Shown in pieces: positions 1,310 through 20,196 of a stretch of DNA of 40,365 nt (position 1 is its first letter; each line of letters begins with the position of its first letter). The notes under the pieces are model-generated. The model saw only the letters and a program-made list of their open reading frames with translations. It was not told the origin of the DNA and searched no databases. Source of the stretch: Fidelibacterota bacterium (GTDB taxonomy: Bacteria > Fidelibacterota > UBA8477 > JABMPR01); contig JAIPGJ010000012.1 of assembly GCA_021736185.1 (NCBI GenBank), positions 1 through 40,365 on the forward strand, in the 5' to 3' direction. The position numbers were made by a program, and so were the translations under genes.

Positions 1310-4300
1310 ATGAGGACAAAACTTCGCAGACTTTTTATAAAAGCGCTTAGTTTTTTATCGATTGTTTTAACGTGGATTGTCTGCATGTCGTCTGTGACTC
1401 ATGCAGCTGATCATGTATCAACTGTTGCTGTTGTCTCCGACAGCGATGGACAAAGAATTCAAGTTGACGGGAAAGATTTCATGATCAATGGGATGAATTG
1501 GGACTATTTCCCAATTGGTACCAACTATTCCTATTCGCTTTGGAATCAAAGTGACGAGATTATTAAAACGGCGCTGGATCGCGAAATGTCTCTTTTACAG
1601 GGTATGGGTGTAAATACCATCCGCATGTATTCTGGGGTGCCTCCGCGTTGGGTGAAATATATCTATGAACAGTTCGGCATATTCACAGTCCTGAACCATT
1701 CTTTTGGACGTTATGGATTCACTGTTAACGGTGTTTGGGTTCCCAATGTTGACTACGGAGATCCAGTCTTCCAAAAAGCTCTTTTAAAAGAAGTGATGAC
1801 CGAGGTTAATGACTTCAAAGATGTTCCCGGTGTGCTCATGTGGTTACTGGGTAATGAAAATAATTATGGTCTGTTCTGGGAAGGTGCGGAAACAGAAGAT
1901 ATTCCTGAGGGTGAAACCGTTCAAACCGTCCGAGCCCACCATATGTACTCATTATTCAATGACGCTATCAATGCTATCCACAAAGTGGACAACAGGCGAC
2001 CCGTTGCCATTTGTAATGGCGATCTATTATTTGTAGACATCATTGCTGAAGAGATTGAAAATCTTGATATACTCGGCAGCAATGTGTACCGCGGTATTTC
2101 ATTTACCGATTTTTTTGAGGTGGCGGAGGAGAAACTTGATGTACCTGTCTTATTTACTGAGTTTGGTGCTGATGCCTTCAATGCCAGGGAAATGCGTGAA
2201 GACCAGGAAAATCAAGCCAAATACCTCCTGGGAAACTGGCAGGAAATTTATGAACAGTCCGCAGGCAATGGGCTGATTGGGAACTGCATCGGTGGTATGA
2301 CTTTTCAGTTCAGTGATGGCTGGTGGAAATATCTACAGACAAGCAACCTGGATGTTCATGATATCAATGCCTCCTGGGCAAATGGTGGCTATCCGGCAGA
2401 CCTGGTTCCTGGTGAAAATAATATGAATGAGGAATGGTTTGGAATCTGCGCCAAAGGACCCACTGATATCGAAGGTCTTTATCAATTGTATCCACGAGCT
2501 GCATATTATGCGCTGAAAGAAGTCCATGCCCTGAATCCTTATGCCCCTGGTGTAGACCTGGAAAAAATCAGAGCACATTTTGTGAGCATCTCCCCCATGT
2601 CAGCTATCCTCATGGCACGTGGAGATAAAGCAGCCCTGGCCTCAGAGGCTGGCAGCCTGGGTCGCATCAAAGGTTTGAGAATCGAAATGGAGACCTACCA
2701 TACCGGCGGAAAGTTCACCACCACACCTGACGATCCAGTCCAGGGCAGCACTGATTTACCCATATCCAAGGGTTTCGATCATATGCAATCCTACTACCTG
2801 TCCGTGGAAGCAACTCCCTCGCCTAATGTAACTGGTGCCGTCACATTTAATGTTTTGGGACATGTTGCCCAAACCCTCATTGATGAGATTTATTACGAAA
2901 AACGTGGTCGGCCACAATCAGTTGTCACCGATGATGGTTCCGTTTCCATGGAAGGTCTTGATCGCGTCCGTGTTTACAATGCCTCCCTATCCTGGGATGA
3001 TAATTTCTTCAGACTTGAAGGATTTTTCCGAACCGGTCATTATCATTGGGGTTATGAAGGCGATTTCTTTGGTCTCTATCGAGAAGCGAACTACGGTCCA
3101 AACATGGACACCTATGATGGAAATGCTCCTCTGGGTATAGAAATTGAAGGCAAGAAAATACTGAGTGGTTTCAAACTGGCCTTTGGACCCGAACTCTGGT
3201 GGGGTGCCAACCCGGCTTATCTAATTAAATATTCTCGATCCATTGGTCCCTTCCTTTTAACGGCTGTGTATCAAGATGATTTAGACAGACAAGCGCCAGC
3301 CATATCCTCCTTTGCTGTACCGCTACCCCCTACGAAAAAGGGAACCCTCCATTTAAAAACAAATTTAGCTGGACTGGGTGTTGAACTTGGCAGTATCTGG
3401 TCAGGTGCAACCAAGGTCGACGAGACCTTTCAGATTGTTGAAGGTACTACAGGAAATTATGAAGTCTTTCAAGATACGGTAAGAGCTGCTGATGCCTGGG
3501 GCGGTAAATTTAAACTCACCTATTCCCGGGGAAGATTGAATTGGTATATACAGGGCGCCTCAATGGGCATTGTTGCCGATGGTGGTCCCACGGCTACCCA
3601 GACTTTTGCAGGCTGGCGCTTAAAAGACAGTGGCAGTGGTAACCAGAATAATATTATCTCTGGTTTCACCATTCAGACAGGTAACCTGCAGATCGCCCCC
3701 AATTTTCTATGGCAAAAACCACTCATTGGACCGATTCCAATCGATGTTCAACAGCCTGGTCGACCGAGAAATGTCATTTCAGACCCCTTTGCCGTTCGCG
3801 GGAATCGCGAAACCACTGCCTACGAGCTGCTACTTACCTATGACCCCACGCCAGCAACCTGGTTCTATGAGTGGAACAATGATATGGCCGAAGATGCTCG
3901 TTTTGCTGCCAGTCTGGATTATGTCTACCGCCAGCACCCCACCACTCAGGATGCAGCAATTGGAATTCTGGCTGATGGTCGAACCACTTTTGCCTTCCCA
4001 GGCGCTCCTCCAGCACGTGATCTCTGGGAATTAAATGGTCGTATCGCTTCAAAATTGAATTCTAATTTTGGCCTGATTATGAATTTCTACCAGGGCATTG
4101 CAGAAGCAAATGGCAGTGATACCCTCTTGGTAGAACGTTTTGGTGGTGATCTCAGAGTGATCAGGGGTTCATCAAAACTCATGGCTATGGCCAAAGTAAA
4201 TGATTGGGGACCCTATGATTATCATCGTGATTATAATCTGACCTATCCCCTGCAACTTGTACTTGATCTATCCACTACTGTGGGTAAGGCAGGATGGTGG

Positions 4301-4489
4301 GATCTCCCCCAGACACGTCTCGGGGTGAGCTATACCTACAGGACCCTGGATTCACATTCACCCCGGTACTGTCCAGAGATGATCCTTAATGATCTCAATG
4401 AAATGGAATGTAATCCAGATGCTGTTGGTGCTGATGATGGTAATGAGTGGCAAATCATGACATACATGCACTTGAACATAGGACTATAG
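1310..4489 (+). CDS. Secreted GH-A clan (GH2/GH5-like) glycosidase fused to a predicted C-terminal outer-membrane beta-barrel
   Basis: Signal peptide; TIM-barrel-like segment with candidate acid/base LLGNENN and nucleophile LFTEFGADAF; the C-terminal ~500 aa are rich in alternating amphipathic strands and end MTYMHLNIGL (beta-signal-like). Confidence 0.7.
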   Translation: MRTKLRRLFIKALSFLSIVLTWIVCMSSVTHAADHVSTVAVVSDSDGQRIQVDGKDFMINGMNWDYFPIGTNYSYSLWNQSDEIIKTALDREMSLLQGMGVNTIRMYSGVPPRWVKYIYEQFGIFTVLNHSFGRYGFTVNGVWVPNVDYGDPVFQKALLKEVMTEVNDFKDVPGVLMWLLGNENNYGLFWEGAETEDIPEGETVQTVRAHHMYSLFNDAINAIHKVDNRRPVAICNGDLLFVDIIAEEIENLDILGSNVYRGISFTDFFEVAEEKLDVPVLFTEFGADAFNAREMREDQENQAKYLLGNWQEIYEQSAGNGLIGNCIGGMTFQFSDGWWKYLQTSNLDVHDINASWANGGYPADLVPGENNMNEEWFGICAKGPTDIEGLYQLYPRAAYYALKEVHALNPYAPGVDLEKIRAHFVSISPMSAILMARGDKAALASEAGSLGRIKGLRIEMETYHTGGKFTTTPDDPVQGSTDLPISKGFDHMQSYYLSVEATPSPNVTGAVTFNVLGHVAQTLIDEIYYEKRGRPQSVVTDDGSVSMEGLDRVRVYNASLSWDDNFFRLEGFFRTGHYHWGYEGDFFGLYREANYGPNMDTYDGNAPLGIEIEGKKILSGFKLAFGPELWWGANPAYLIKYSRSIGPFLLTAVYQDDLDRQAPAISSFAVPLPPTKKGTLHLKTNLAGLGVELGSIWSGATKVDETFQIVEGTTGNYEVFQDTVRAADAWGGKFKLTYSRGRLNWYIQGASMGIVADGGPTATQTFAGWRLKDSGSGNQNNIISGFTIQTGNLQIAPNFLWQKPLIGPIPIDVQQPGRPRNVISDPFAVRGNRETTAYELLLTYDPTPATWFYEWNNDMAEDARFAASLDYVYRQHPTTQDAAIGILADGRTTFAFPGAPPARDLWELNGRIASKLNSNFGLIMNFYQGIAEANGSDTLLVERFGGDLRVIRGSSKLMAMAKVNDWGPYDYHRDYNLTYPLQLVLDLSTTVGKAGWWDLPQTRLGVSYTYRTLDSHSPRYCPEMILNDLNEMECNPDAVGADDGNEWQIMTYMHLNIGL

Positions 4490-4558
4490 ATCATGATTTT
4501 AAAAAATATTCACCAAATATCTGCACAGTCAACCCTTAATGGGGCAGGAGATTTTAGA

Positions 4559-5965
4559 ATGAATAGAAAAAATAAATCCTATCTGTTTGCCATCATGATA
4601 TTGGTGGTTTTAGGCGGGTTATTTTCATGCGAGAGGGAAACGGGCATTTTAGGGCCAGCTCCCTTCCCTACAGATGCCGAAGTTTTTATTGATGGTTTTG
4701 GTCCAAGTGTGGAACCGCAGTCCTTCTTAGGGACTAAATTGGATGCCTTGCAGATAGATGAATCAGAGGCATATAGTGGTACTCAATCCATCATAATAAC
4801 TATCCCGGGACCAGGTGATCTTTCAGGTTCGACTTGGTCTGGTGGAGCTCTGGTAGCTGGCATAGCCCGTGACTTAACGGGTTACAATGCACTCACCTTT
4901 TGGGCCAAAGCAAACAAGTCACTCACCTTAAATTCCGTGGGACTTGGAAACGATAATGAAGCCCCAAATCCTTATGTTGTTGAACGCGTGAATGTGCCTT
5001 TGACAAGCTCCTGGACAAAGTACGTAATCCCAATCCCCCTGCCGGCAAAGCTGCCACAAGAGCAGGGATTATTCTATTACTCTGAGGGTCAGGAAAATGG
5101 TGAAGGAGCAACGATCTGGTTGGATGAGATTCAGTTTGAGTCCCTGGGAACCATCGCGCACCCCGCTATCAGCTTTGCGTCCACAAGTGCAACTGCATAC
5201 CAGGGCTCTACCGTATCAGTTCCTTCAGTTACCATAAGCTATGATGTTGATGGAACAAATGTAGACGTGGTGGCCTCATCAAATTACCTCAGCTTCAGCT
5301 CATCTGACACAAGTATAGTAACCATCAATGCAGATGGTACCATGACTGCCAATAATCCAGGAAGTGCTACAATAACCGCAACACTGGGTGACAATAGTGC
5401 CACAGGTTCCATCACAGTGAATGTTGATTATGCCCCAGTCTCTCCTGCTGCGGATCCTACCCATGATGCAGCTGATGTGATGGCTTTATTCAGCGATACC
5501 TACACCAGCGTTACTCCCAATATGAACTGGTACACCTATTGGACATGGTCAACAGCAGAGGTGAACGAATTTGATATCGATGGAAATGAGATGATGATTT
5601 TCAGCAAGTTAAATTTTGCAGGAGTAGAGTTCGCCGACGAGCAAATTGATGCTTCGGCTATGACCCATTTCCACATGGATATCTGGACCCCAAACTATAT
5701 TACCGCTTCATCTAGATTTATTATTAAGCTCGTTGATTTTGGCGCAAATGGTGCCTACGGCGGTGGTGATGATACAGAGCATGCTCTGACCTTAAGTACC
5801 ACCACTACCCCGGCCTTGTCCTCGAATTCCTGGGTCAGTATTGATGTTCCAATGACTGCCTTTACTGGAGCAACAGCGCAATCCCATCTTGCTCAGTTGG
5901 TTCTTGAGTGTACTGGTGGAGCGCTTACAACCATTTTTGTTGATAACGTCTATCTGTACAGATAA
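4559..5965 (+). CDS. Lipoprotein with CBM-like domain, Ig-like (BIG2-type) domain and C-terminal glycan-binding-type module
   Basis: The in-frame ATG at 4559 gives MNRKNKSYLFAIMILVVLGGLFSCERE with a lipobox and upstream GGAG; TITATLGDNSATGSITV is Ig-like; the C-terminus ends IFVDNVYLYR. Confidence 0.7.
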   Translation: MNRKNKSYLFAIMILVVLGGLFSCERETGILGPAPFPTDAEVFIDGFGPSVEPQSFLGTKLDALQIDESEAYSGTQSIIITIPGPGDLSGSTWSGGALVAGIARDLTGYNALTFWAKANKSLTLNSVGLGNDNEAPNPYVVERVNVPLTSSWTKYVIPIPLPAKLPQEQGLFYYSEGQENGEGATIWLDEIQFESLGTIAHPAISFASTSATAYQGSTVSVPSVTISYDVDGTNVDVVASSNYLSFSSSDTSIVTINADGTMTANNPGSATITATLGDNSATGSITVNVDYAPVSPAADPTHDAADVMALFSDTYTSVTPNMNWYTYWTWSTAEVNEFDIDGNEMMIFSKLNFAGVEFADEQIDASAMTHFHMDIWTPNYITASSRFIIKLVDFGANGAYGGGDDTEHALTLSTTTTPALSSNSWVSIDVPMTAFTGATAQSHLAQLVLECTGGALTTIFVDNVYLYR

Positions 5966-5987: not shown

Positions 5988-7262
5988 ATGATAGATTCAA
6001 AACACCGCAAAGGACTCGATTCCAATCATGGCTATAGCCAGTCTGACTCTCTCGGTCGACATGTCGTCGACCGATGGGAGTCCAAACCGTTGGCAGATTC
6101 TGTTTTACACCTCATCTGGCGGAAGCATCAGATTTCCCGTGCAGAAATTGCTCGGGAAATTGGTCTCTCTCGTTCCACAGTAACTGAAGTTGTGAAAGAG
6201 CTGCTCCTTTCCGGGTTTGTTAAGGAGGTAGGTAGCGGGGTTTCCAGTGGGGGTCGCAAGCCCATTGTTCTGGAATTTCAGAATGAAGCCAGGATCATTT
6301 TTGGTATCGATATTGGGGCCACCCACGTTGCTGCAACTCTCACTGATCTAAGTGGACAAATTCTGGCTTATGAGAAATATAACTATTTGGTGAGATCAGA
6401 TCCAAAAGGAACCCGTGATCTGGTATTTCAACTCTGCGATGGTATGCTCGATAAGATAAAAAATGGAATGAAACGCCTCCTGTGCATCGGGGTTGCTCTC
6501 CCCAGTCCAGTAGATCCCGATCACCCTGAATGGCTATCAGAAGTTGTTATTCCCGCCTGGCGTGGTCGAAGCGAAATAGATCTCCTCCACCGTCACTACA
6601 ATGTTCCTGTTTACGTTGACAATGATGCTAATCTCGGTGCCCTGGCAGAACATCGTTGGGGAGCTGGTCGTGGGGTGAAGGATCTGACCTATGTAAAACT
6701 GGGTTATGGTGTCGGAGCAGGATTTATCCTCAATGGAGAGATTTATCGAGGGGGTTCTGGGATAGCCGGTGAAATGGGTCATATCCCTATTAAAACTGAT
6801 GGTATTAAGTGTGTTTGCGGACTTAAAGGCTGTCTGGTGACTCTGGTTGGTGGCCTGGCAATGGAAAAACGGGTCAAAAAGCTGCTATCTAAATTCCCTC
6901 ATAGTTCTCTGGCGAAAGTGGAGCCAACACTTCAGAATATAGAACTGGCCGCAAGTCATAATGATGAGTTAGCACTCCAGCTTTTCAAAGAAACAGCTGA
7001 TTATATGAGTATCGCAATTACCGGCTGGATCAATATGATGAATCCTAGCCGAGTCATTATTGGGGGCGCACGTAAGGAACTTCAGCGACAGATTTTAAAG
7101 CCTATCCAGGTCAAAATCCGGGAATGCTCCATTGTGGGTTCTGTTGCCAGTACAGAGATCAGAACAGGGTCTCTGGGAGAGCAAGCTGAAAGCATTGGGG
7201 CTGCAACACTCGCTCTGGAGGAAGTTTTCTCTGAACCAGGCTTCTATATGAGTAAATCTTAA
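5988..7262 (+). CDS. ROK-family transcriptional regulator (N-terminal HTH plus ROK sugar-kinase-like domain)
   Basis: HTH ISRAEIAREIGLSRSTVTEVVKELL; ROK motifs IDIGATHVAATLTDL, GYGVGAGFILNGEIYRGGSGIAGEMGHIPI and zinc motif CVCGLKGCL. Confidence 0.92.
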   Translation: MIDSKHRKGLDSNHGYSQSDSLGRHVVDRWESKPLADSVLHLIWRKHQISRAEIAREIGLSRSTVTEVVKELLLSGFVKEVGSGVSSGGRKPIVLEFQNEARIIFGIDIGATHVAATLTDLSGQILAYEKYNYLVRSDPKGTRDLVFQLCDGMLDKIKNGMKRLLCIGVALPSPVDPDHPEWLSEVVIPAWRGRSEIDLLHRHYNVPVYVDNDANLGALAEHRWGAGRGVKDLTYVKLGYGVGAGFILNGEIYRGGSGIAGEMGHIPIKTDGIKCVCGLKGCLVTLVGGLAMEKRVKKLLSKFPHSSLAKVEPTLQNIELAASHNDELALQLFKETADYMSIAITGWINMMNPSRVIIGGARKELQRQILKPIQVKIRECSIVGSVASTEIRTGSLGEQAESIGAATLALEEVFSEPGFYMSKS

Positions 7263-7278
7263 ATCACAGGAATGTTTC

Positions 7279-8106
7279 ATGTCGACAAGATCTAATATCA
7301 TCCTGACACCCATACTGCTTTTGTCGTTGCTTCTTTTTATTCAGTGCAGCAACAATTCTGAGCCCATAGAAAAAGAGTGGCAGATTATCTGGCAAGATGA
7401 ATTTGACGGCCCTCAGGGACAATCACCAGATTCCACGCGTTGGGTATATGACACCTGGGGCAATGAATCAGGCTGGGGCAATAATCAGTTAGAATATGAT
7501 ACTGATAGACCTGAGAATGTGTCTTTGGATGGTGAGGGTCATCTGGCCATCGTTGCCCGCGAAGAATCTTATGGTGGATTAAACTTCACTTCTGCCAGAA
7601 TAACAACTCAGGGTCTTTTCGAGTTGACCTATGGCCGTTTTGAAGCCAGAATTTATCTACCGTGGGGACAGGGCTTATGGCCAGCATTCTGGTTATTGGG
7701 AGATGATTTTAACACGGCAGGTTGGCCCTATTGCGGGGAGATCGATATCATGGAGTATCGTGGCCAGGAGCCGCGGACTATTCATGGAACTATTCATGGT
7801 CCGGGTTATTCAGGCGCACAGGGAGTCGGGACCTCCTACACCCTGACAAATGCGCGATTTGATACAGATTTTCATACCTTCTCTATTGAATGGAATCTGG
7901 AAAACATCAGTTGGTTTGTTGATGGCGAGCTATATCAGACTATCACTAGCAACGATGTCCCTGGCGATTGGGTCTATGATCACCCCTTCTTTATCATTTT
8001 AAATCTGGCAGTAGGCGGCAATTATGTCGGTCCGCCTAATGAGAATACCATTTTTCCTCAAACCATGCTCGTAGACTACGTCCGAGTCTATCAGGAAGTC
8101 GAGTAG
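7279..8106 (+). CDS. GH16 endo-beta-1,3-glucanase (laminarinase-like), lipoprotein
   Basis: Lipobox-like LLLFIQCSNN; catalytic motif GEIDIMEYRG; WPAFWLLG and HTFSIEWNLENISWFVDGELY typical of GH16. Confidence 0.93.
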   Translation: MSTRSNIILTPILLLSLLLFIQCSNNSEPIEKEWQIIWQDEFDGPQGQSPDSTRWVYDTWGNESGWGNNQLEYDTDRPENVSLDGEGHLAIVAREESYGGLNFTSARITTQGLFELTYGRFEARIYLPWGQGLWPAFWLLGDDFNTAGWPYCGEIDIMEYRGQEPRTIHGTIHGPGYSGAQGVGTSYTLTNARFDTDFHTFSIEWNLENISWFVDGELYQTITSNDVPGDWVYDHPFFIILNLAVGGNYVGPPNENTIFPQTMLVDYVRVYQEVE

Positions 8107-8162: not shown

Positions 8163-10145
8163 ATGCACATGAGTGCTAAAAAGCATTACCAAACGGCAGA
8201 AGAAGATCGAATCTCTCTAAAACAAAAAGCGGCTTATTCCATAGGTATGCTGGTCAACAACCTTCAGGCAGCAGCTATGCCTGCCATGGTTGTCATTTTA
8301 AATCTTGGCTTGGGCATGGATGTGCTGTGGGTTGGATTAATTGGGGCTATCCCCCGTATTTTTGATGCCATTTCAGATCCCCTGGTGGGTTACATCTCAG
8401 ATAATACCAGAACAAGATGGGGTCGACGACGTCCATTTATTTTCGTCGGTGCCATTACCGCTGGAATCATATTTGCATTGATGTGGCAGCTACCTTCAGG
8501 CTATATAGATTTTCTCAAAAAAGCACCTGTGCTGGAACATCAAGGCTACTCCATTGGTCAATCACCCGTCGTTTTTAATAAAGCGGGTGGGGTTGAATTA
8601 GAGTATGATGCAAGCATTCAACCTACTGCACAATTTGTTTTTTATGGCCCAAAAACGCTGGCCATCGATGCTGTTTCTCCCACCTCAACCAATCTGGATG
8701 GATTTCCTCAAGTAGAACTCAATGTTTTGAAACCTGAAGGATCTAAACTGCGATTGGTTTTCTACGAATCAGTGAGTTCAAATTCAGAGAATCCTTCCGA
8801 TGGCGAAACATATGCCATCGATCTCAGTGATGCACAGTTGAAACAGAAAGGTGGGAACCTTTATAATTTTGATTTAGCTGACATGCAAAGCATGCCATCG
8901 GATGATGCTCCTCAGGGCAACGGCACCCTGGACCTCCAGGCAATCGACCGCGTCTCCGTCGAATTTGCTGGTTTGACAGGCGCAGGTACTGTTACAGTCC
9001 AGTCTATTAAACTCAAGAAGAGCGATGGGTTTTACGTTTTCTGGTTTTGGCTATTCCTTTTCATGTCCATCCTATTCTTTCTCGCCTACACGGTCTATGC
9101 AACGCCATTTGTGGCCTTTGGTTACGAAATGACAGCCGATTACCATGAACGAACGCGATTACACGCTTTTGCCAATACCGTTGGTCAGCTGGCCTGGTTG
9201 GGCGTCCCCTGGTTCTATGCCATCATGTCAAGTGCGCTGTTCAGAGACACAGTACATGGTGCCCGCACTCTGGCGTGGGTTGTGGGTGGTGTCGTAGCCG
9301 TTTTTGGTATCCTGCCGGCAATTTTCCTCAAGGAAAGGCCAACGCTTACACCTGTGGTCAATGCGGGCAAGGGACTCATGGCCAATATGAAAGAGTTCTT
9401 CGCCGGTATTAAAACGACCCTGAGTTGCTCTCCCTTCGTCAAGATCTGTGGAACGACCTTCCTGGTATTCAATGGATTTCAATTGGGAATGTCATTTTCC
9501 ATCTATGTTATGATTTACTACCTCTTTGGAGGAAATGACGGGGATGCCGGTAAACTCATGGGCTGGTACGGGATGCTCACTTCGATTGCCACACTGGGAG
9601 TGATTCCACTTACTGGATGGATCGGAACCAAAATCGGCAAGCGCCAGACCTTCATGATCACGATCTCCCTTTCTTTATTTGGCTATGCACTCAAGTGGAT
9701 TGGTTACAATCCAGACTACCCCTATATGCTCCTTATGGCTACACCCTTTGTTGCCTTTGGAACCGGTTCCCTGTTTACCCTCATGGGATCCATGATCTCA
9801 GATGTTTGCGATTATGATGAATTAGAGACCCACCAACGGCGAGAAGGTGTCTTTGGGGCTATTTACTGGTGGATGGTGAAAGTTGGAATGGCACTAGCTG
9901 GTATACTCACGGGAGTACTTCTTAAAGTGGCCGGTTTTGATGTTGCCCTTGGCGCCGCCCAGGCTTCAAGTACGCTCTTCTGGATTCGTATCTTCGATGT
10001 AGGGGTACCGCTGGTCACGTCAGCCATTGCCCTGTTTATCATGATGAGTTATGAAATCACAGAGACCAAAGCCCACGAGATCAGACTCGAGCTTGAAAGC
10101 AGGCGCGGAAAAATTGCCAATGCAGAAGGACCTGAAAATGAATAA
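8163..10145 (+). CDS. GPH/MFS-type sugar:cation symporter with a large periplasmic insertion after TM3
   Basis: RIFDAISDPLVGYISDNTRTRWGRRRPFIFVG is a GPH/MelB-like signature; multiple TM segments; about 175 hydrophilic residues (aa ~112-287) lie between TM3 and the next TM. Confidence 0.88.
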   Translation: MHMSAKKHYQTAEEDRISLKQKAAYSIGMLVNNLQAAAMPAMVVILNLGLGMDVLWVGLIGAIPRIFDAISDPLVGYISDNTRTRWGRRRPFIFVGAITAGIIFALMWQLPSGYIDFLKKAPVLEHQGYSIGQSPVVFNKAGGVELEYDASIQPTAQFVFYGPKTLAIDAVSPTSTNLDGFPQVELNVLKPEGSKLRLVFYESVSSNSENPSDGETYAIDLSDAQLKQKGGNLYNFDLADMQSMPSDDAPQGNGTLDLQAIDRVSVEFAGLTGAGTVTVQSIKLKKSDGFYVFWFWLFLFMSILFFLAYTVYATPFVAFGYEMTADYHERTRLHAFANTVGQLAWLGVPWFYAIMSSALFRDTVHGARTLAWVVGGVVAVFGILPAIFLKERPTLTPVVNAGKGLMANMKEFFAGIKTTLSCSPFVKICGTTFLVFNGFQLGMSFSIYVMIYYLFGGNDGDAGKLMGWYGMLTSIATLGVIPLTGWIGTKIGKRQTFMITISLSLFGYALKWIGYNPDYPYMLLMATPFVAFGTGSLFTLMGSMISDVCDYDELETHQRREGVFGAIYWWMVKVGMALAGILTGVLLKVAGFDVALGAAQASSTLFWIRIFDVGVPLVTSAIALFIMMSYEITETKAHEIRLELESRRGKIANAEGPENE

Positions 10146-11838
10146 TAGTGGTTCTCATGTCGTACATTTCATCGCGCTTTCAAGTATTGTGCTATGCAGC
10201 TGTGCGCTCGGTCCAGATCCACAACCGCTGGCATCACCTGGCAAGACTTTGAGTACGACAGAGATCATTTTGACCTCTTCCCAGGGAGACCGTCAAACGC
10301 CGAAAGAAAATGTTCATTTTTCAAGTGGACAGGCTTCCGGTGTGGTGCTTCGTGTGTACCCTGACAAGCTTAAGCAGACCATTGACGGAATCGGCACCTC
10401 CTTTACCGAGTCTTCTGCCTATGTCCTCGCCCATCTTGACAAAGAGAAACGCCTGGCGGTCATGCAGTCCATCTACGGTCAGGATGGCGCCAATTTCGCA
10501 TTGGCTCGTACCCACATTGGTGCTTGTGACTTCAGCGTAAATGGAAAATACTCCTATGCTGACCTACCAGGAGATACCGACCTCAATTCGTTCAGCATCT
10601 CAGAAGATTCAAATGGATTCGATCCCTCTGAGCACCCAGGGATCAAGGACCAGGATTATGATCTATTGCCCATGATCCAGGAAGCATTGAGTATTAAAGC
10701 TGCTCAAAAAGATTCTGAAATGCAGATCATTGCCTCTGCCTGGACGGCACCTCCCTGGATGAAGGATATCGAGGACTGGTACCAACCCATGACACCAGAA
10801 AACAACTGGCAAGGTTCCGGGGGGACCTTGAAACCTGAGTATGTTGGGACTTATGCCAACTACTTGCTTCGTTATCTCGAAGCCTACAAGGCAGCCGGCG
10901 TTCCCATCTGGGGACTGACCCCCGTCAACGAACCTCACGGAAATAATGGCCAATGGGAAAGCATGAATTTTTCACCTGAAACTCAAAGTGAGTTTGTCCA
11001 GAAGCATCTGGGACCTGGTCTCAGAAACTCAGAATTCAAGGGAACCAAACTCCTGATCTTTGACCAAAACCGTGATGGTATGGAACATTGGGCTGATGTC
11101 CTCTTCCCAGCTGATAAAGCAAACAAATACATTACCGGGATTGCAGTACACTGGTATGAAAGCACCTTCAAAGTTTACGAAGATGTATTTGATAGAGTCC
11201 ACGAGAAATATCCTGACTATCGTATTGTTCATACAGAAGGCTGTATTGATGATCTGGGTAAACCGGCCCCTGATGGCTGTACTGATCCAGAGGGTCGCAC
11301 CGAGAAGAACTGGTTTAATAATGATGAGTTCTGGTGGACCAAAAGTGCCTCGGATTGGGGCTATGCAGTCAATTGGGCTGGGGTGAATGCGGATGATCAT
11401 CCCTTGTACAACCCTGTTCATCGTTATGCACGAAATATTATTGTCAGTCTGGATCATTGGGCAACCGGCTGGGTAGATTGGAATATTGTCCTGGATCATC
11501 AGGGCGGTCCCAATCATGCTGGAAATTATTGCGGGGCACCCATTATGATTGATACGGAAAAACAGGATGTCTACTATACACCCATCTATCATGTCCTGGC
11601 CCAATTCAGTCGGACTATTCGACCCGGTGACCGGGCAGTACAAACGATGCAGTTGAATGCAGATCTTGGACTGGATGATTTACATAGTTGTGCCACCCTC
11701 AATGATGCAGGTGTTTTAAGCGTTCAGTTATTGAATACATCCGCTAAGAACATTGACTATAAATTGCAGATCGGGAATCAATTTGCTGAAATTCAAATTC
11801 CTGAAAACTCCGTGCAGACAGTTCGTGTCCAGCTTTAA
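10138..11838 (+). CDS. GH30 glycoside hydrolase (beta-glucosidase / beta-1,6-glucanase-like), lipoprotein
   Basis: The start at 10138 (AGAAGGA upstream, 8-nt overlap with the symporter stop) gives MNNSGSHVVHFIALSSIVLCSCAL with a lipobox; GIGTSFTESSAYVL, acid/base TPVNEPHG, nucleophile VHTEGC. Confidence 0.88.
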   Translation: MNNSGSHVVHFIALSSIVLCSCALGPDPQPLASPGKTLSTTEIILTSSQGDRQTPKENVHFSSGQASGVVLRVYPDKLKQTIDGIGTSFTESSAYVLAHLDKEKRLAVMQSIYGQDGANFALARTHIGACDFSVNGKYSYADLPGDTDLNSFSISEDSNGFDPSEHPGIKDQDYDLLPMIQEALSIKAAQKDSEMQIIASAWTAPPWMKDIEDWYQPMTPENNWQGSGGTLKPEYVGTYANYLLRYLEAYKAAGVPIWGLTPVNEPHGNNGQWESMNFSPETQSEFVQKHLGPGLRNSEFKGTKLLIFDQNRDGMEHWADVLFPADKANKYITGIAVHWYESTFKVYEDVFDRVHEKYPDYRIVHTEGCIDDLGKPAPDGCTDPEGRTEKNWFNNDEFWWTKSASDWGYAVNWAGVNADDHPLYNPVHRYARNIIVSLDHWATGWVDWNIVLDHQGGPNHAGNYCGAPIMIDTEKQDVYYTPIYHVLAQFSRTIRPGDRAVQTMQLNADLGLDDLHSCATLNDAGVLSVQLLNTSAKNIDYKLQIGNQFAEIQIPENSVQTVRVQL

Positions 11839-11910: not shown

Positions 11911-14900
11911 TTGAGTGCTTCCTCCAAATCAAAATACCAGCTAAATAAAGATGGTAAGTTCGTCATCGGCAACTACAACTCTGCCAAGCCATTTTCCAGC
12001 TTTTTCCCTGGAATTGCTGGTAAGATGGGTATACCCATGTGGGTGTTCTATGTAAATAGAGGTCAATGTATTTGCAGTATGGGTATCCAGGATAAAGAGC
12101 ATCCTATTATGGAATTTCTCCCGGCAAACTGGGCCTATCAGTTGGTATCCAGCCAGGGTTTCAGGACTTTTTTAAAATTTCCCCAGGGCTCCGGCATCAA
12201 TTTCTACGAACCCTTTCAGAATCACTACCGTGACAGAGAGATTATCAGAACCCAGAGTATGCATATCTCCCCCTCCGGTCTTCATCTCGTGGAAGAAAAT
12301 GAGACCCTAGGATTACGGTTTACTGTGGAGTATTATTCCATTCCTGAAGACAATTTCCCGGGCTTAATTCGCAAACTGCATATTACCAATCTGAACAATA
12401 TCGATATTTCATTTGAAGGGCTTGATGGATTACCTCTCATCATCCCCTATGGCTTGACCAATGCAGGCTTAAAACATGTACGCCGACTCATGGAAGCCTT
12501 TGTGGAAGTTAAAAATCTCGAGGAAAAAGCACCCCTCTTCAAAGCAAAGGTAAAACCCGCAGATCGTCCCGATGTGGAAATCCTTGAGAAGGGCAATTTT
12601 TATCTTGGTTTTGAACATGATTCAGATGGCACAAATCTCTTAAATCCTATTGTCGATCCCGAGCTCATTTTTGGTACACAAAACAACTATAGCTTCCCGG
12701 AAAAGTTCCTGGATGAGTCGATTCAGGATATCCTTGGTCATCAGGCCATTGAAAATCGTCTCCCGTCAGCCATGAGTTTATTCAAAAAACAGCTCGGTGC
12801 CGGTCAAACCTATACGGTAACCTCCATTATCGGACATGTTGATTCTCGCGAGGAATTAAACAGTTTGATTCCCTCCATCACAAAAATGGACTATATCAAT
12901 TCAAAAGTTCAATCCAGCATCACTATTATCGATGAACTCACCCAGAAAAACCTGGTGATCAGTAGCAATCCGACTTTTGATAAATATGTTAGACAAAATT
13001 TCCTGGATAACGTCCTGCGCGGTGGATTCCCCTACACTCTCAAGGGTGAAAGTTCAAAATCAGTTTTACACCTTTATTCCCGTAAACACGGAGACCTGGA
13101 ACGTGATTACAATGATTACCGTATCACACCCTCGTTCTATTCCCAGGGTAATGGTAATTTCAGGGATGTCAATCAAAATAGGCGTTCAGACCTATTCTTT
13201 AATCCTGACGTCAAATCTGGCAATCTTGAACATTTTGTAAATTTAATACAACTTGATGGTTTTAATCCGCTTGTCATAAAAGAAATCAAATACACCCTCG
13301 AAGATAATGCCCGAGGAAAGAACATATTGATTCACCATCTTCCTGAAGCTGCTGCTGAGCAAGCTCTGGTATTTCTGCAAAAAGAGGTAACTCCTGGTGA
13401 GCTACTCGCTTATCTGGATGATCTGGGTGTCAACTTTCCAGGCAATGCTGATAGCTTTTTAGGCGATCTGCTGCCTTGCTGCAAAAAGATTCATGACACA
13501 GATTTTGCCGAGGGTTATTGGTCCGATCATTGGACATATAACATGGATTTATTGGAGAATTATCTAAGTATTTATCCTGATAATCTTAAGTATATCGTCT
13601 GGGATTACCAAAAGTTCACTTTTCATGATACTGCCCACAGGGTGCTTCCCCGTGATGACAAATATGTCATCTGGGAGAATAAAAAGATGCAATTGAATGG
13701 GCTTGAATTAGTAGAAGAGAAGGCAGCTCTGATGGCCACTCGAGCACACGACCGTGATTTAGTACGGACCCGTTATGGTCATGGTGAAGTCGTTCAAACC
13801 ACTTTGTTCATAAAATTGATCTCTACTATCACCAATAAAATCGCGTCGCTTGATCCATCAGGAATTGGTGTTGAGATGGAAACTGACAAGCCCAACTGGT
13901 ATGACGCGCTAAATGGCATACCTGGCCTCATGGGCTCTAGCCTCAGTGAGACTCTGGAAATCAAACGACACGCAGCATTTCTCTTGAATTTCCTTCAGGA
14001 ATCGACACTGCTGGATGATGAAGTAGATGTATTTGAAGAGTTGGCCGCCTTCATGCAAAAAGTTTTTGAACTGCTTCCAAGTACTACGAAGCCATTTGAT
14101 TATTGGGATGCTGCCACATCTGCAAAAGAAGCGTATCGAGAACAAACCCTGTATGGGATCAGTGGCCAGATAGGACCGGTTAAACTGAGCTGGATTACTG
14201 AATTTCTCACGGCCTGCGTCACAAGGATTGATGATGGGGTTGCCAGAGCCTGGAACAGTGATGGAACGATACCTTATACCTACTTTACCCATCGGCCCAA
14301 AGACTACGAACTCATTGAAACGATTTCTGAAGACGGCAGAAAAGCCATCAAAACCAATTCCAAAGGCCACTCTTGTTTTCGGGTGAAAAGCTTCGAATGC
14401 ATTCATCTCCCCCTCTTCCTTGAGGGACCGGTCCATTACCTACGCTGTCGACCAGACCAGCAGCATGCCGATCAAGTCACCACACACATTCGCAAGAGTG
14501 GTCTCTTTGATCAAAAACTTAAAATGTATAAAGTCAACGAATCGCTAAAGGATCAACCCATGGAAATCGGGCGTGCCCGCACCTTTTCACCGGGTTGGTT
14601 TGAAAACGAATCGATCTGGTTGCACATGGAATATAAATATATGCTCGAGGTCCTGCGCAATGGTCTGTACGACACTTTTTTCGCAGATTTCAAGCAGGTC
14701 TTTATTCCCTTCCTCGATCCTGAAGTCTACGGGCGCAGTATCCTGGAAAACTCATCCTTTATTGTCAGTAGTGCCAATCCTAATCCAGGGCTGCACGGCA
14801 CAGGCTTTGTGGCACGTTTGAGTGGGGCAACTGCTGAATTCATTCACATCCTCATGGAGATGGCAGTAGGACCGAACCCCTTTGCCATGAAGAATGAAAA

Positions 14901-15231
14901 AGACTTGATGTTTAATCTCAAACCAGTCCTTCCCAGTTGGTTGTTCACTGATCAAGCGCAAAACATCAATCTAACCAATGATGGTAATACCCAATCCATG
15001 GTGATCCCCGCCAACAGTTTCAGCTTTATGTTCCTGGGTGATATGCTTATAAGCTATATCAATCCCGGTATGAAAAATACCTATGGACCTGATAGTGTTT
15101 CCCCCATGGAATGGACACTTTATGACGACGATGGTGGCATTCAACACATGAGTGGTTCGACCCTCAAGGGCAATACAGCGAAAATGATCAGATCCAAAAA
15201 GATCCGGCGCATTGAAATTGTGCTCAAATAA
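11911..15231 (+). CDS. GH149/GH94-like glycan phosphorylase, probably a beta-1,3-glucan phosphorylase
   Basis: 1106 aa, no signal peptide, TTG start with AAAGG upstream; cellobiose-phosphorylase-like architecture (NYNSAKPFSSFFPGIAG..., DKPNWYDALNGIPGLMGSSLSETLE, ...WTLYDDDGGIQHMSG); size and laminarinase-rich context fit GH149. Confidence 0.65.
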   Translation: MSASSKSKYQLNKDGKFVIGNYNSAKPFSSFFPGIAGKMGIPMWVFYVNRGQCICSMGIQDKEHPIMEFLPANWAYQLVSSQGFRTFLKFPQGSGINFYEPFQNHYRDREIIRTQSMHISPSGLHLVEENETLGLRFTVEYYSIPEDNFPGLIRKLHITNLNNIDISFEGLDGLPLIIPYGLTNAGLKHVRRLMEAFVEVKNLEEKAPLFKAKVKPADRPDVEILEKGNFYLGFEHDSDGTNLLNPIVDPELIFGTQNNYSFPEKFLDESIQDILGHQAIENRLPSAMSLFKKQLGAGQTYTVTSIIGHVDSREELNSLIPSITKMDYINSKVQSSITIIDELTQKNLVISSNPTFDKYVRQNFLDNVLRGGFPYTLKGESSKSVLHLYSRKHGDLERDYNDYRITPSFYSQGNGNFRDVNQNRRSDLFFNPDVKSGNLEHFVNLIQLDGFNPLVIKEIKYTLEDNARGKNILIHHLPEAAAEQALVFLQKEVTPGELLAYLDDLGVNFPGNADSFLGDLLPCCKKIHDTDFAEGYWSDHWTYNMDLLENYLSIYPDNLKYIVWDYQKFTFHDTAHRVLPRDDKYVIWENKKMQLNGLELVEEKAALMATRAHDRDLVRTRYGHGEVVQTTLFIKLISTITNKIASLDPSGIGVEMETDKPNWYDALNGIPGLMGSSLSETLEIKRHAAFLLNFLQESTLLDDEVDVFEELAAFMQKVFELLPSTTKPFDYWDAATSAKEAYREQTLYGISGQIGPVKLSWITEFLTACVTRIDDGVARAWNSDGTIPYTYFTHRPKDYELIETISEDGRKAIKTNSKGHSCFRVKSFECIHLPLFLEGPVHYLRCRPDQQHADQVTTHIRKSGLFDQKLKMYKVNESLKDQPMEIGRARTFSPGWFENESIWLHMEYKYMLEVLRNGLYDTFFADFKQVFIPFLDPEVYGRSILENSSFIVSSANPNPGLHGTGFVARLSGATAEFIHILMEMAVGPNPFAMKNEKDLMFNLKPVLPSWLFTDQAQNINLTNDGNTQSMVIPANSFSFMFLGDMLISYINPGMKNTYGPDSVSPMEWTLYDDDGGIQHMSGSTLKGNTAKMIRSKKIRRIEIVLK

Positions 15232-15266: not shown

Positions 15267-17123
15267 ATGAACAAATATGAACAGCAAATATCAGAATTAA
15301 TGGCAAAAATGAACCTGGATCAGATGGTTGGTCAACTGGTACAGCCAGAGCGTCAGTTTGTGACACCAGAGCAGGTGAAAAAATACCATATCGGTTCCGT
15401 GCTGAGTGGAGGCGGTTCCGTCCCAGGAAATAATACCCCTGAGGATTGGATTGCCATGAATGATGAATATTGGGCTGCCTCCATGGAAGCAGATGAAGAT
15501 CATTTAGCTATTCCCATTGTTTATGGAGTAGATGCCATCCACGGGAACTCCAATGTGACGGGCGCAGTGGTTTTCCCCCATAATATTGGGCTAGGAGCAG
15601 CAAGAGATCCCGACCTTATGGAGCGCATCGCAAAAGCAACAGCACGGGAAATTGCAGTTACCGGTGTGGAATGGACATTTGCTCCGACACTGGCAGTTGT
15701 ACGCAATGACCATTGGGGTCGTACTTATGAAAGTTATAGCGAAGATCCAAAGATTGTATCTGAATATGCTCCCCGTTTTATTGCCGGTCTCCAGGGTGAT
15801 TTTGGTGAGGAAAGCGTCATTGCCTGTGCAAAACACTTTGTGGGAGATGGAACAACCGTGCATGGCATCGACCAGGGGGATGCTCAAATCGATGAGGCTG
15901 AGTTGCGCCGCTTGCATATTCCTCCCTATCAGGCTGCCATAGAAGCAGGTGTTCTCACCATCATGGCTTCCTTAAACAGCTGGAACGGTCTCAAATGTCA
16001 TGAACACCGCTACCTGCTCACCGATGTGCTCAAGGATGAATTAGGGTTTAAAGGCTTTATTGTTTCTGATTGGGATGGTATTGACTGTCTCTCTGAAGAT
16101 TTCGGAAAAGCCGTTGAGCTGGGTCTGAATGCCGGGATGGATATGTTCATGGTCACTGAAAAGTGGCAGGAGTTCATTGAACACGCCAAGTTGCTTGTTC
16201 TCGCTGGGAGAGTTCCCCGGAAACGACTGGAAGACGCCGTCAGAAGAATTCTCAGAGTCAAATTTGAATTTGGCTTATTTGATAAACCCAGACCTGCAGA
16301 GCGCAAACTTTCCAAACAGACCGAGATATTCGGTTCCAGGGAACACCGTGAAGTTGCCCGTGAAGCAGTCCGAAAATCGCTTGTTATGCTCAAAAACGAA
16401 GAGACACTCCTCCCCCTTGAAAAAAATGCCCGGATTTTGGTAGCTGGCAAAAATGCCAATAATCGGGGTCATCAGTGCGGTGGGTTTACCGTGAACTGGC
16501 AGGGTGCCACTTCCAATGAGGAAATTCCTGGTGGCCAATCCATATGGGAAGGTATACAGTCCCTAGCTCCTGGAGCCATTCTAAGTGAAAACCTCGATGG
16601 GAATGAAGCTAATCCTGATGAGCATGATGTGGCCATCGTAGTCATCGGTGAAATGCCCTATGCAGAAATGCTAGGCGATGTTCGGGTTCCAGGATTACTG
16701 CAAGAATATACCACATTCCCCAATAGCACTCCCATACCAATTGACGATACCGAGGTAGCAGAAGTCTATGCCACGAATCTTTATCTCCACGAAATGCATC
16801 CTGAGGATATCACCACCATTGAAAATATAAGAGCGAGGGGAATCCCTGTAGTGACCGTCATGGTTTGTGGTCGTCCGTTGGTGGTCGAGAAAGAACTTGA
16901 TGCTTCTACAGCCTTCGTGGTGGCCTGGCTACCAGGATCTGAGGGTCATGGTGTAGCTGATGTCCTGTTTGGTGATTTTGATATCCAAGGTAAACTGAGT
17001 ATTTCCTGGCCCAAATATGACAATGAAAACTGGAATATCGGTGACCCAGACTATAATCCTCGATTCCCCTATGGATTTGGTCTCCAGTACAACAAATCAA
17101 AGTCATCAGGTAAATCATCATGA
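15267..17123 (+). CDS. GH3 beta-glucosidase, probably cytoplasmic
   Basis: GVDAIHGNSNVTGAVVFPHNIGLGA, WGRTYESYSEDP, nucleophile region GFIVSDWDGID; no signal peptide. Confidence 0.93.
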   Translation: MNKYEQQISELMAKMNLDQMVGQLVQPERQFVTPEQVKKYHIGSVLSGGGSVPGNNTPEDWIAMNDEYWAASMEADEDHLAIPIVYGVDAIHGNSNVTGAVVFPHNIGLGAARDPDLMERIAKATAREIAVTGVEWTFAPTLAVVRNDHWGRTYESYSEDPKIVSEYAPRFIAGLQGDFGEESVIACAKHFVGDGTTVHGIDQGDAQIDEAELRRLHIPPYQAAIEAGVLTIMASLNSWNGLKCHEHRYLLTDVLKDELGFKGFIVSDWDGIDCLSEDFGKAVELGLNAGMDMFMVTEKWQEFIEHAKLLVLAGRVPRKRLEDAVRRILRVKFEFGLFDKPRPAERKLSKQTEIFGSREHREVAREAVRKSLVMLKNEETLLPLEKNARILVAGKNANNRGHQCGGFTVNWQGATSNEEIPGGQSIWEGIQSLAPGAILSENLDGNEANPDEHDVAIVVIGEMPYAEMLGDVRVPGLLQEYTTFPNSTPIPIDDTEVAEVYATNLYLHEMHPEDITTIENIRARGIPVVTVMVCGRPLVVEKELDASTAFVVAWLPGSEGHGVADVLFGDFDIQGKLSISWPKYDNENWNIGDPDYNPRFPYGFGLQYNKSKSSGKSS

Positions 17124-18241
17124 GAATCAAACTTCCGGTAGGCATCATCGCACTTTTTTTAAGTGCTATACTGATCGACTGCTACCAAGGTTCAGCGCAA
17201 CCGGAAATATCACAGTCTGTAAAAAGTACCGTTAATTTCACCACTGATATTGGGGTTAACAATCCACCTTCACTGAAGGAAACTCCATTCCTTAAACGCC
17301 CATTCACGCCCTATCTCGGTGATCAATGGATCGGCAATGCTATTTCTTATGGCTGTTATCGTGAGGGACAGGCACCTGGTGTCCAGGGTCCCAGTGAGGA
17401 AGAGATACTGGAAGATCTCAATATTCTCAAGGAGCATTGGAATTTTATTCGGGTTTATGGCTCGGATGATGATTCCGAGAGAGTTCTAAAAGTTATCCAT
17501 CAGAAGGCCCTACCCTTCAAAGTGATGCTGGGAATCTGGCTTGAGAATGAGACTAAAAACCCAGAACGGGAACTCAAAAACCTTGAGCAATTAAACAAAG
17601 CCATTGAGTTGGCGAATCGATATGAGGATATCGTTGCAGCAGTAAATGTTGGCAATGAGACCCAGGTTTACTGGTCCTGGCACCACATGGAGTCAGCTCC
17701 CTTAATCAAGTACATACGAACCGTGAGAGCCAGTATCAAGCAACCAGTGGCAACAGCTGATGATTACAACTTTTGGAACAAGCCGGAGAGTCGGGAAATA
17801 GCTGATGAAATCGATTTTATCGTATTACATGCCTATGCACTCGCTAATAAGCAGCAGTTGGAACACGCGATTTATTGGACTGACAGTGTTTATCAGGATA
17901 TTCAAAATAGACATGCCGGGATGACCATCGTCCAGGGTGAAACTGGCTGGGCCACGAACTATAATCCGGAGAAAATTGGTCCGGGGGAACAAGGCACCAT
18001 TATGCAAGGAGAAGTGAGTATTCGAGCTCAGGAGAAATTTTTGATCGATATCAACTCATGGATTAATGAAAATCAAATCTCTACCTTCCTCTTTGAGGCT
18101 TTCGATGAGCCCTGGAAAGGTGGCGGAGAGCAATCGGGACCAAATGAAGTTGAGAAGAATTGGGGAGTATTCTATGTGAACAGAACTCCAAAAGCATCAT
18201 TTGAAGCTTACCAAAAGCAAATAAATCAGAGTTCAAATTGA
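17120..18241 (+). CDS. GH17-like beta-1,3-glucan hydrolase/transglycosylase, secreted
   Basis: GNAISYGCYREGQAPGVQGPSEEEILEDLNIL...FIRVYGSDD; VNVGNETQ (acid/base) and VQGETGWATNYN (nucleophile); ATGA overlap with the GH3 stop. Confidence 0.85.
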   Translation: MRIKLPVGIIALFLSAILIDCYQGSAQPEISQSVKSTVNFTTDIGVNNPPSLKETPFLKRPFTPYLGDQWIGNAISYGCYREGQAPGVQGPSEEEILEDLNILKEHWNFIRVYGSDDDSERVLKVIHQKALPFKVMLGIWLENETKNPERELKNLEQLNKAIELANRYEDIVAAVNVGNETQVYWSWHHMESAPLIKYIRTVRASIKQPVATADDYNFWNKPESREIADEIDFIVLHAYALANKQQLEHAIYWTDSVYQDIQNRHAGMTIVQGETGWATNYNPEKIGPGEQGTIMQGEVSIRAQEKFLIDINSWINENQISTFLFEAFDEPWKGGGEQSGPNEVEKNWGVFYVNRTPKASFEAYQKQINQSSN

Positions 18242-18357
18242 TCTGGGTAACCTGGTCAGTCATGAATCTCAGATGGAAGGAGGATATGAAAGAATTTTTA
18301 CTATTTGGTGGTAAACCAAGACAAAGCAATTCAACAAATACACAAAATGGAGAAATT

Positions 18358-20196
18358 ATGAAATCAAGAATGACAATCTTATTAGTTTTAAGCTGGTTGT
18401 TATCAATGGGAGGCGTGGCAATGGCCCAAAACGCCCCGATTGATTTTGAAACAGGTGGATACGGTGCAAGTTGGACCTGGTCCACATTTGAAAATGATAC
18501 AAACCCCGCACTGGAGGTGGTAGCCAATCCCAGTGCTTCAGGTATCAATACCTCAGCCACTGTTGCTAAATTTACTGCTTTGGCCACAGGTGCAGCCTGG
18601 GCAGGTTGTGAATCATTGCATGGTTCAGATATCGGCACTTTTACATTAGATGCTTCCAACAGAATACTAAAGATAATGGTGTACAAATCTGTTATCAGCG
18701 ATGTTGGGATAAAATTAGCTAAACCAGATGGCTGGGCATTGCCTGAAATTAAAGTTCCCAATACTGTTATTGATGAATGGGAAGAGCTTACGTTTGACCT
18801 GACATCCAGGATATCAGATGGCTATGATCAGATTATTATTTTCCCTGATTTTCTGGCAAGAGACCAGGATCATATTGTTTATTTCGACAATATCACCTTT
18901 TCAGAGGGGGCTCCTGTACTTACCGAACCAGATGTAGCTGCACCAGCACCAGAACAGGCTCAAAATGATGTGATCTCTATCTTCAGTAATGTCTATACAG
19001 ATGTAACGGTAGACACCTGGTCAGCTACATGGGACAATGCTGATGTTGCAGATGCCCAGGTTTTAGGAGATGATGTAAAACTCTATACTAATTTTGGATA
19101 TGCTGGTATCGAATTTACATCACAGCCAATCGATGCTTCTACAATGACCCATTTCCATATAGATATCTGGACACCGGATGTAATTGGAACTGGTGCCTTC
19201 CATGTGAAACTGGTGGATGCTGGTGCCGATGGTGTTATGGGCGGTGGCGATGATACGGAATCCCTGGTAACTTTCACAGCAAATACGACTCCTGCTCTTG
19301 AAGCAGGGACCTGGGTTGCCATTGATATCCCGCTGGCAAGTTTTAGTAGTCTTGCCGCTAAAAGTCATCTTGCTCAATTGATTATCGAGGGCGACCCGAA
19401 CACTTTATATGTTGATAATATATATTTTTATTCTGGTGATGACCCAATAAACGTACCTGTTGTTGCAGCACCTGCTCCAGACGAAAATGAAGCAGATGTT
19501 ATTTCAATTTTCAGCGATACTTATACAGATATTGCAGGTGTTGATATAAACCCAGCTTGGAGCCAGACCACCGTGTTTTCCCAGGTATCCATAGAGGGTA
19601 ATAACACGTTGCTCTATGCTGCTTTAAATTACCAGGGCATAACATTTCCTAACCTGGATGTTTCAGCCATGAACTATGTCCACCTTGATTTTTGGACCGC
19701 GAATTCTACGGCTCTGAACTTCTATCTCATCAGCCCAGGGCCTGCTGAGAGGGCTTCTGCCCTTCCAATAACACTGGGAAGCTGGGTAAGTGTTGACATA
19801 CCACTGACTGATTTTTCAACTGTTGACTTAGCAGATCTATTCCAGCTTAAGTTTGATGGCAACGGTAATGTCTATGTGGATAATATTTATTTCTATTCAA
19901 CAACAACTGGAATTGAGGAGAAGTTGGTACCCGACAATTTTGTTCTCAAGCAGAATTATCCCAATCCATTCAACCCTTCGACAACGATTAGCTACACCTT
20001 GAATGAATCTGGAAAGGCCAACCTGAGTGTCTATAATATCAATGGTCAGCTGGTTGCCACTGTGTTTGATGGTTTTGCCAACGCTGGTGAGCATACTCAT
20101 CTTTACAGTGCTGATGGACTTGCTGCAGGAACCTATTTTTATTCCTTAACAGCAGGGAATCAGAAAACAGTAAAAAAGATGGTGCTTATTAAATAG
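18358..20196 (+). CDS. Secreted multidomain glycan-binding-type protein with T9SS-type C-terminal sorting domain
   Basis: The in-frame ATG at 18358 (GGAG upstream) gives MKSRMTILLVLSWLLSMGGVAMAQ; N-terminal CBM-like domain, two related modules ending NTLYVDNIYFYS and NVYVDNIYFYS, and the tail LKQNYPNPFNPSTTISYTL...GTYFYSLTAGNQKTVKKMVLIK. Confidence 0.85.
   Translation: MKSRMTILLVLSWLLSMGGVAMAQNAPIDFETGGYGASWTWSTFENDTNPALEVVANPSASGINTSATVAKFTALATGAAWAGCESLHGSDIGTFTLDASNRILKIMVYKSVISDVGIKLAKPDGWALPEIKVPNTVIDEWEELTFDLTSRISDGYDQIIIFPDFLARDQDHIVYFDNITFSEGAPVLTEPDVAAPAPEQAQNDVISIFSNVYTDVTVDTWSATWDNADVADAQVLGDDVKLYTNFGYAGIEFTSQPIDASTMTHFHIDIWTPDVIGTGAFHVKLVDAGADGVMGGGDDTESLVTFTANTTPALEAGTWVAIDIPLASFSSLAAKSHLAQLIIEGDPNTLYVDNIYFYSGDDPINVPVVAAPAPDENEADVISIFSDTYTDIAGVDINPAWSQTTVFSQVSIEGNNTLLYAALNYQGITFPNLDVSAMNYVHLDFWTANSTALNFYLISPGPAERASALPITLGSWVSVDIPLTDFSTVDLADLFQLKFDGNGNVYVDNIYFYSTTTGIEEKLVPDNFVLKQNYPNPFNPSTTISYTLNESGKANLSVYNINGQLVATVFDGFANAGEHTHLYSADGLAAGTYFYSLTAGNQKTVKKMVLIK

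Follow-up and report, generated by a model that had tools for sequence, protein, structure and literature searches.

The window, by which we mean the whole 40,365-nucleotide stretch of DNA analyzed, carries an intact open reading frame of 1,059 codons at positions 1310 to 4489 of the forward strand, exactly where the first-pass annotation had placed a single 1,059-residue protein. The gene is present as a single copy in the source genome. Its product is predicted to consist of a Sec signal peptide, a GH158-like GH-A TIM barrel, and an outer-membrane β-barrel, all encoded on the forward strand. The signal peptide, read by eye, spans residues 1 to 33 (MRTKLRR...THA/AD; 1310 to 1408), with a helix predicted at residues 2 to 33. 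The TIM barrel covers residues 40 to 428 (1427 to 2593). A helix in the AF2 secondary structure (residues 429 to 448; 2594 to 2653) links it to the outer-membrane barrel, which occupies residues 451 to 1059 (2660 to 4486) and has about 24 predicted strands.

Relationships of the enzyme half

The enzyme half of the window protein matched the GH2 TIM barrel model PF02836 in Pfam (27.9 bits against a cut-off of 21), as did 42 of 45 relatives. Pfam detected no GH2-type sugar-binding or Ig-like domains ahead of the TIM barrel, which starts at about residue 40. When a profile of the 45 relatives was searched against the PDB, the top match was 6PAL (E = 1.3e-6), followed by 9ORO, GH158(Pro) (E = 1.4e-4). 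Foldseek likewise returned GH158(Pro) as the top match of the TIM-barrel model (E = 9e-15). The GH158 profile matches are weak (about 23 to 30 bits) and of partial coverage, and no GH158 model came up in the libraries searched.

6PAL is BuGH158, an endo-β-1,3-glucanase that loses its activity when N136, E137, or E220 is mutated (PMC7157763). These residues align with N182, E183, and E284 of the fusion protein, in which E183, following N182, is the predicted acid/base and E284 the predicted nucleophile. The N182-E183 (LLGNENN) and E284 (FTEFGADAF) sites, already picked out as a GH-A catalytic pair in the first-pass annotation, are identical in 82 of 82 full-length sequences. The fusion protein shares with BuGH158 and GH158(Pro) a GH-A TIM barrel, an alignable NE acid/base motif, and a glutamate nucleophile. 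However, the sequences are distant, and in place of the C-terminal Ig-like domain of these enzymes AF2 puts a helix and then the membrane barrel. Because of the distant similarity and the missing Ig-like domain, the enzyme half can be called "GH158-like" at most. It probably cuts β-1,3-glucan, the storage sugar of algae.

Predicted fold and topology of the C-terminal half

Pfam returned nothing usable for the C-terminal half, and searching PDB sequences with a profile gave no match, so this half was recognized by fold comparison only. AF2 modeled residues 429 to 1059, from an alignment of 74 sequences, as all β (pLDDT 80.9, pTM 0.78), with an outer-membrane-type fold rather than a soluble sandwich or propeller. 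The full-chain model had a pTM of 0.55 and does not show how enzyme and pore lie relative to each other. All 50 of the best PDB fold matches of the barrel half (Foldseek) were outer-membrane barrels, including OprD/Occ porins, MOMP, AlgE, TonB-dependent transporters, and LptD, at TM-scores against known barrels that were low to modest (0.18 to 0.43). The nearest folds, those of OprD/Occ, MOMP, AlgE, and the TonB-dependent barrels, have 16 to 22 strands, no detectable sequence similarity to the C-terminal half, and no fused enzyme. TonB-dependent transporters also contain a plug, whereas Pfam found neither a TonB plug nor a carboxypeptidase-like domain here, and the segment preceding the barrel is only a helix of ~20 residues. 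A TonB-dependent or SusC-type transporter was rejected on these grounds.

The model contains about 24 strands, compared with 16 or 18 in a classical porin; this predicted count leaves out small hairpins within loops, and both closure and strand number are uncertain. Most strands turn a hydrophobic face to the lipid and a polar, more conserved face to the lumen. The gaps between strands alternate, those from odd to even strands being long (7 to 36 residues) and those from even to odd strands short (mostly 2 residues; P = 0.0003). Classical barrels have long extracellular loops and short periplasmic turns, and their termini are, as a general rule, periplasmic. The alternation therefore places both termini of the pore on one side. 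From the loop lengths and the general barrel rule, we infer that both barrel ends, and hence the enzyme, would be periplasmic unless the enzyme is threaded outward.

Four long loops (residues 574 to 607, 629 to 635, 753 to 778, and 966 to 978, within 2660 to 4486) are near-invariant in the alignment, with 88 to 99% conservation, and three of them are rich in aromatic residues (RTGHYHWGYEGDFFGLY..., LWWGANP, and WGPYDYHRD). Such conservation is unusual for loops at the surface and suggests that they line a sugar path. A porin-like C-terminal portion of ~500 residues ending in a β-signal had been proposed from the sequence. The appearance of an outer-membrane barrel was borne out by AF2 and Foldseek, but this portion is larger, at ~610 residues (about 451 to 1059). 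Its last strand is amphipathic (EWQIMTYMHLNIGL), but the final residue is Leu rather than an aromatic, a departure from the textbook β-signal. As predicted, the protein combines the broad features of an outer-membrane barrel, namely a signal peptide, amphipathic antiparallel strands, and a barrel fold.

Gene neighborhood, distribution, and apparent barrel loss

The genes that follow on the forward strand give the window the appearance of a β-1,3/1,6-glucan locus. Directly downstream lies hyp490 (4493 to 5965), a putative surface-glycan-binding-type lipoprotein with a lipobox (GGLFSC/ERE), a Big_2 domain, and CBM-like domains, the C-terminal one of which is repeated in relatives. Next are a ROK-family regulator with an N-terminal HTH (5988 to 7262) and a GH16 laminarinase (7279 to 8106), a lipoprotein by its lipobox (LFIQC), that matches the β-1,3-glucanase 2HYK (E = 6.6e-77). 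A GPH-type sugar symporter (MFS_2; 8163 to 10145) with an insert of ~180 residues is followed by a GH30 whose closest model, at a sub-cut-off score, is endo-1,6-β-glucanase (10051 to 11838) and by a GH149-like β-1,3-glucan phosphorylase, also a sub-cut-off match (11911 to 15231). The remaining genes encode a GH3 closest to the exo-β-1,3/1,6-glucosidase model, again below cut-off (15267 to 17123), a GH17-like protein just under cut-off (17120 to 18241), and a T9SS-tailed secreted protein (18238 to 20196).

Relatives of hyp490 have a CBM11-like match close to the N-terminus and, in varying copy number, a domain of ~160 residues that matches CBM30 weakly and below cut-off. Added copies of this CBM-like domain extend hyp490 from about 470 to 1,345 residues (e.g., at loci L053, L066, and L067), and the same domain is found in the T9SS protein at 18238 to 20196. 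The insert in the GPH symporter (residues ~110 to 295, ~180 residues of non-MFS sequence) is common to the window's genus. Gemmatimonadota symporters (L028, L042, and L043) have longer inserts that match the hyp490 CBM-like repeat, with the order swapped, and the Bacteroidota copies (about 480 to 530 residues) are without an insert. The insert is possibly a built-in sugar-binding domain. The 1,106-residue phosphorylase-like protein (11911 to 15231) has no Pfam match and scores 106 bits against the GH149 cut-off of 1150; it perhaps represents a separate phosphorylase family.

Across loci, hyp490 lies directly downstream of the fusion in 68 of 77, and GH16 is near the fusion in most. In Gemmatimonadota, hyp490 is adjacent in none of 7 loci, and GH3 is near instead. 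The cluster of Flavobacterium aquatile comprises a regulator (Y_Y_Y/LuxR), the fusion, hyp490, GH16, a PKD-CBM4 lipoprotein, and a GH149 β-1,3-glucan phosphorylase that clears its cut-off (1425 bits against 1150). No SusD was found closer than about 10 kb to the fusion in the 20 genomes checked, which led us to reject a SusCD-type polysaccharide utilization locus, and none was found anywhere in ten barrel-bearing genomes.

In a species-level genome collection, at least 581 candidate stretches encode relatives. The best 80 of these are nearly all full-length fusions, mostly 56 to 63% identical. Among the matches listed, the search for homologs with the same fusion recovered about 80 full-length relatives (56 to 83% identity) from about ten phyla, among them Bacteroidota, Gemmatimonadota, Ignavibacteriota, Calditrichota, KSB1, Zixiibacteriota, Delongbacteria, Acidobacteriota, and Marinimicrobia, going by the record titles. 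The carriers include cultured members of Flavobacterium, Algoriphagus, and Hanstruepera. The full-length arrangement recurs in phylum after phylum, which makes a chance architecture untenable. In 289 genomes from the class of F. aquatile, all 13 barrel matches sit in frames of 1,041 to 1,093 residues. Of 245 genomes in the window's phylum, 5 have the barrel; in four it is part of a fusion, and in the fifth (G036) it is interrupted by frame breaks. Apart from that copy, we found no unfused barrel in these 245 and 289 genomes. In G036, a one-contig genome, the fusion gene (locus L085, 224 to 3369) is broken into three frames and is either a pseudogene or a sequencing error. Pairwise distances of the enzyme and barrel halves correlate (r = 0.78). 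Codon-based dN/dS was near 0.04 wherever dS was computable, although dS is saturated and the ratio is not reliable. At locus L023, the enzyme half is near the Bacteroidota copies (distance 0.24) and the barrel half is far from them (0.45); one half may have been exchanged in that lineage.

At least 10 relatives in the window's genus, within Marinimicrobia (Fidelibacterota), keep the enzyme half alone. A tree of the enzyme half places at least two changes between the fused and GH-only forms in this genus. Because the fusion is the state everywhere else, we read these changes as losses, and the barrel was apparently lost at least twice in Marinimicrobia. The N-terminal part of hyp490 was present in 5 of 5 barrel genomes and absent from 16 of 16 others searched, several of which are incomplete. 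As the barrel and the hyp490 lipoprotein were lost together in both losses, they appear to behave as a single functional module, without which the enzyme is retained.

Candidate roles of the fusion

Taken with the computed fold of each half, the conserved fusion and catalytic residues, the gene context, the joint loss with the lipoprotein, and the lack of SusD nearby lead us to favor, as fairly probable, a role as an outer-membrane port and glucanase for SusCD-independent uptake of β-1,3-glucan of the laminarin type. The first-pass annotation had suggested that the enzyme is tethered to, or feeds, its own pore; the architecture supports this suggestion well, through the conserved fusion, the barrel fold, and the β-1,3-glucan locus. 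We infer the periplasmic side of the enzyme, the direction of transport, the substrate, the activity, and the gating as follows. Outside the cell, hyp490 and the GH16 lipoprotein laminarinase would bind and shorten the glucan. Its chains would enter the ~24-strand barrel, where the near-invariant, aromatic-rich loops probably line the sugar path. The GH158-like endo-β-1,3-glucanase, held on its helix of ~20 residues where the pore opens into the periplasm, would cut the emerging chains, and cutting at emergence would make import one-way. Short products would then pass to GH3 and GH17, the GPH symporter, and the GH149-type phosphorylase. Gene context and topology make it plausible that cleavage is coupled to uptake. 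The GH-only relatives count against the uptake-port reading, as they keep the enzyme without the pore, and so do the low TM-scores and the Gemmatimonadota loci, in which hyp490 is not adjacent.

A more specific version, which we put forward only tentatively and regard as somewhat doubtful, is a TonB-independent, SusCD-free port in which a wide, plugless pore of ~24 strands is gated or pulled by the attached endo-glucanase, hydrolysis making import one-way, and the CBM-repeat lipoprotein serves as an outer lid. The fusion would then represent a new class of glycan importer found in about ten phyla.

Among other explanations, the barrel may be only an anchor or translocator that displays the enzyme on the cell exterior, the arrangement of autotransporters (EstA) and patatin-type Vd proteins (PlpD). 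EstA and PlpD have translocator barrels of 12 or 16 strands with the passenger outside. The order of enzyme, helix, and barrel is that of an autotransporter, with the enzyme N-terminal and the barrel C-terminal as in EstA and PlpD; the helix at residues 429 to 448 lies ahead of the barrel, where autotransporters have their pore helix, and a surface endo-glucanase would also suit a laminarin locus. However, the ~24 predicted strands and near-invariant long loops depart from the 12- or 16-strand type, and a near-invariant lumen and loops would be needless in a mere anchor. Neither autotransporters, including the EstA and PlpD types, nor Omp85 proteins were among the 50 best fold matches, and Pfam found no POTRA domain. 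We consider surface display unlikely.

The enzyme could instead remodel glucan as a β-1,3-glucanosyltransferase (GH72- or GH17-like) that lengthens or cyclizes chains at the pore. Eight of the 45 relatives have a weak match to PF03198 (GH72; best E = 4.8e-5), and a GH17 transglycosylase is known in marine Muricauda (PMC11005184). In the window protein, however, the PF03198 match is below cut-off in Pfam (17.9 against 25.9 bits), and the hydrolytic GH158 enzymes are its closest relatives by both structure and profile. Transglycosylation, raised in the first-pass annotation as an alternative to cleavage, has no support other than this sub-threshold match and seems improbable.

We give still less credence to an export machine that trims and exports a self-made β-glucan in the manner of PgaB/PgaA or PelA/PelB. 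The fold matches do include AlgE, and a periplasmic GH with an outer-membrane porin is a known layout for exopolysaccharide export (PMC9384988, PMC12022489). The locus, however, is catabolic in content (GPH symporter, GH149-type phosphorylase, GH3, GH16, GH17, GH30, and ROK regulator), and neither the scan of window proteins nor a look by eye at the listed loci turned up a glycan synthase. An origin of the fusion as an artifact of assembly or gene calling, which a draft genome and a gene 1.3 kb from the contig start might suggest, is refuted by some 80 full-length copies that arose independently in the data, several of them from cultured strains.

The proposed uptake port resembles the 1,3GUL of Bacteroides uniformis, which comprises a TonB-dependent transporter, SGBP-A/B, GH16, GH158, and GH3 (PMC7157763). 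The two loci are alike by role in their outer-membrane transporter, surface glycan-binding lipoprotein, GH16, GH158-type glucanase, and GH3. In contrast, 1,3GUL uses a SusC-type transporter with a SusD partner and a separate GH158, whereas here the GH and a plugless barrel form one chain with no SusD near. In Formosa, FbGH17b (FORMB_24740) joins a GH17 to a transport protein that spans the membrane, and its authors were aware of no further case of a transporter fused to a CAZyme (PMC6246565). It is likewise a CAZyme and transporter in one chain within a laminarin locus, but the enzyme family is different and the transport part, which we read as inner-membrane type, is not described as an outer-membrane barrel. 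PgaA/PgaB and PelB/PelA share with the proposed port a periplasmic GH acting at an outer-membrane pore. Open-access literature searches, some of them narrow and a weak guide, returned no described fusion of a GH to an outer-membrane pore. The PgaA/PgaB and PelB/PelA systems consist of separate chains with TPR-porins and serve biosynthesis and export. The fusion looks like an undescribed route for glucan intake without SusC/SusD.

Few polysaccharides carry as much carbon through the ocean as laminarin, whose bacteroidetal consumers are usually recognized by their SusC/SusD genes. The fusion gene marks candidate laminarin consumers without SusCD in Marinimicrobia, Ignavibacteria, KSB1, Zixibacteria, and Gemmatimonadota, and the clusters that hold it in cultured Flavobacterium have no SusD nearby. 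It offers a compact, testable case of an enzyme covalently joined to a putative import pore, in which the cultured hosts allow knock-outs.
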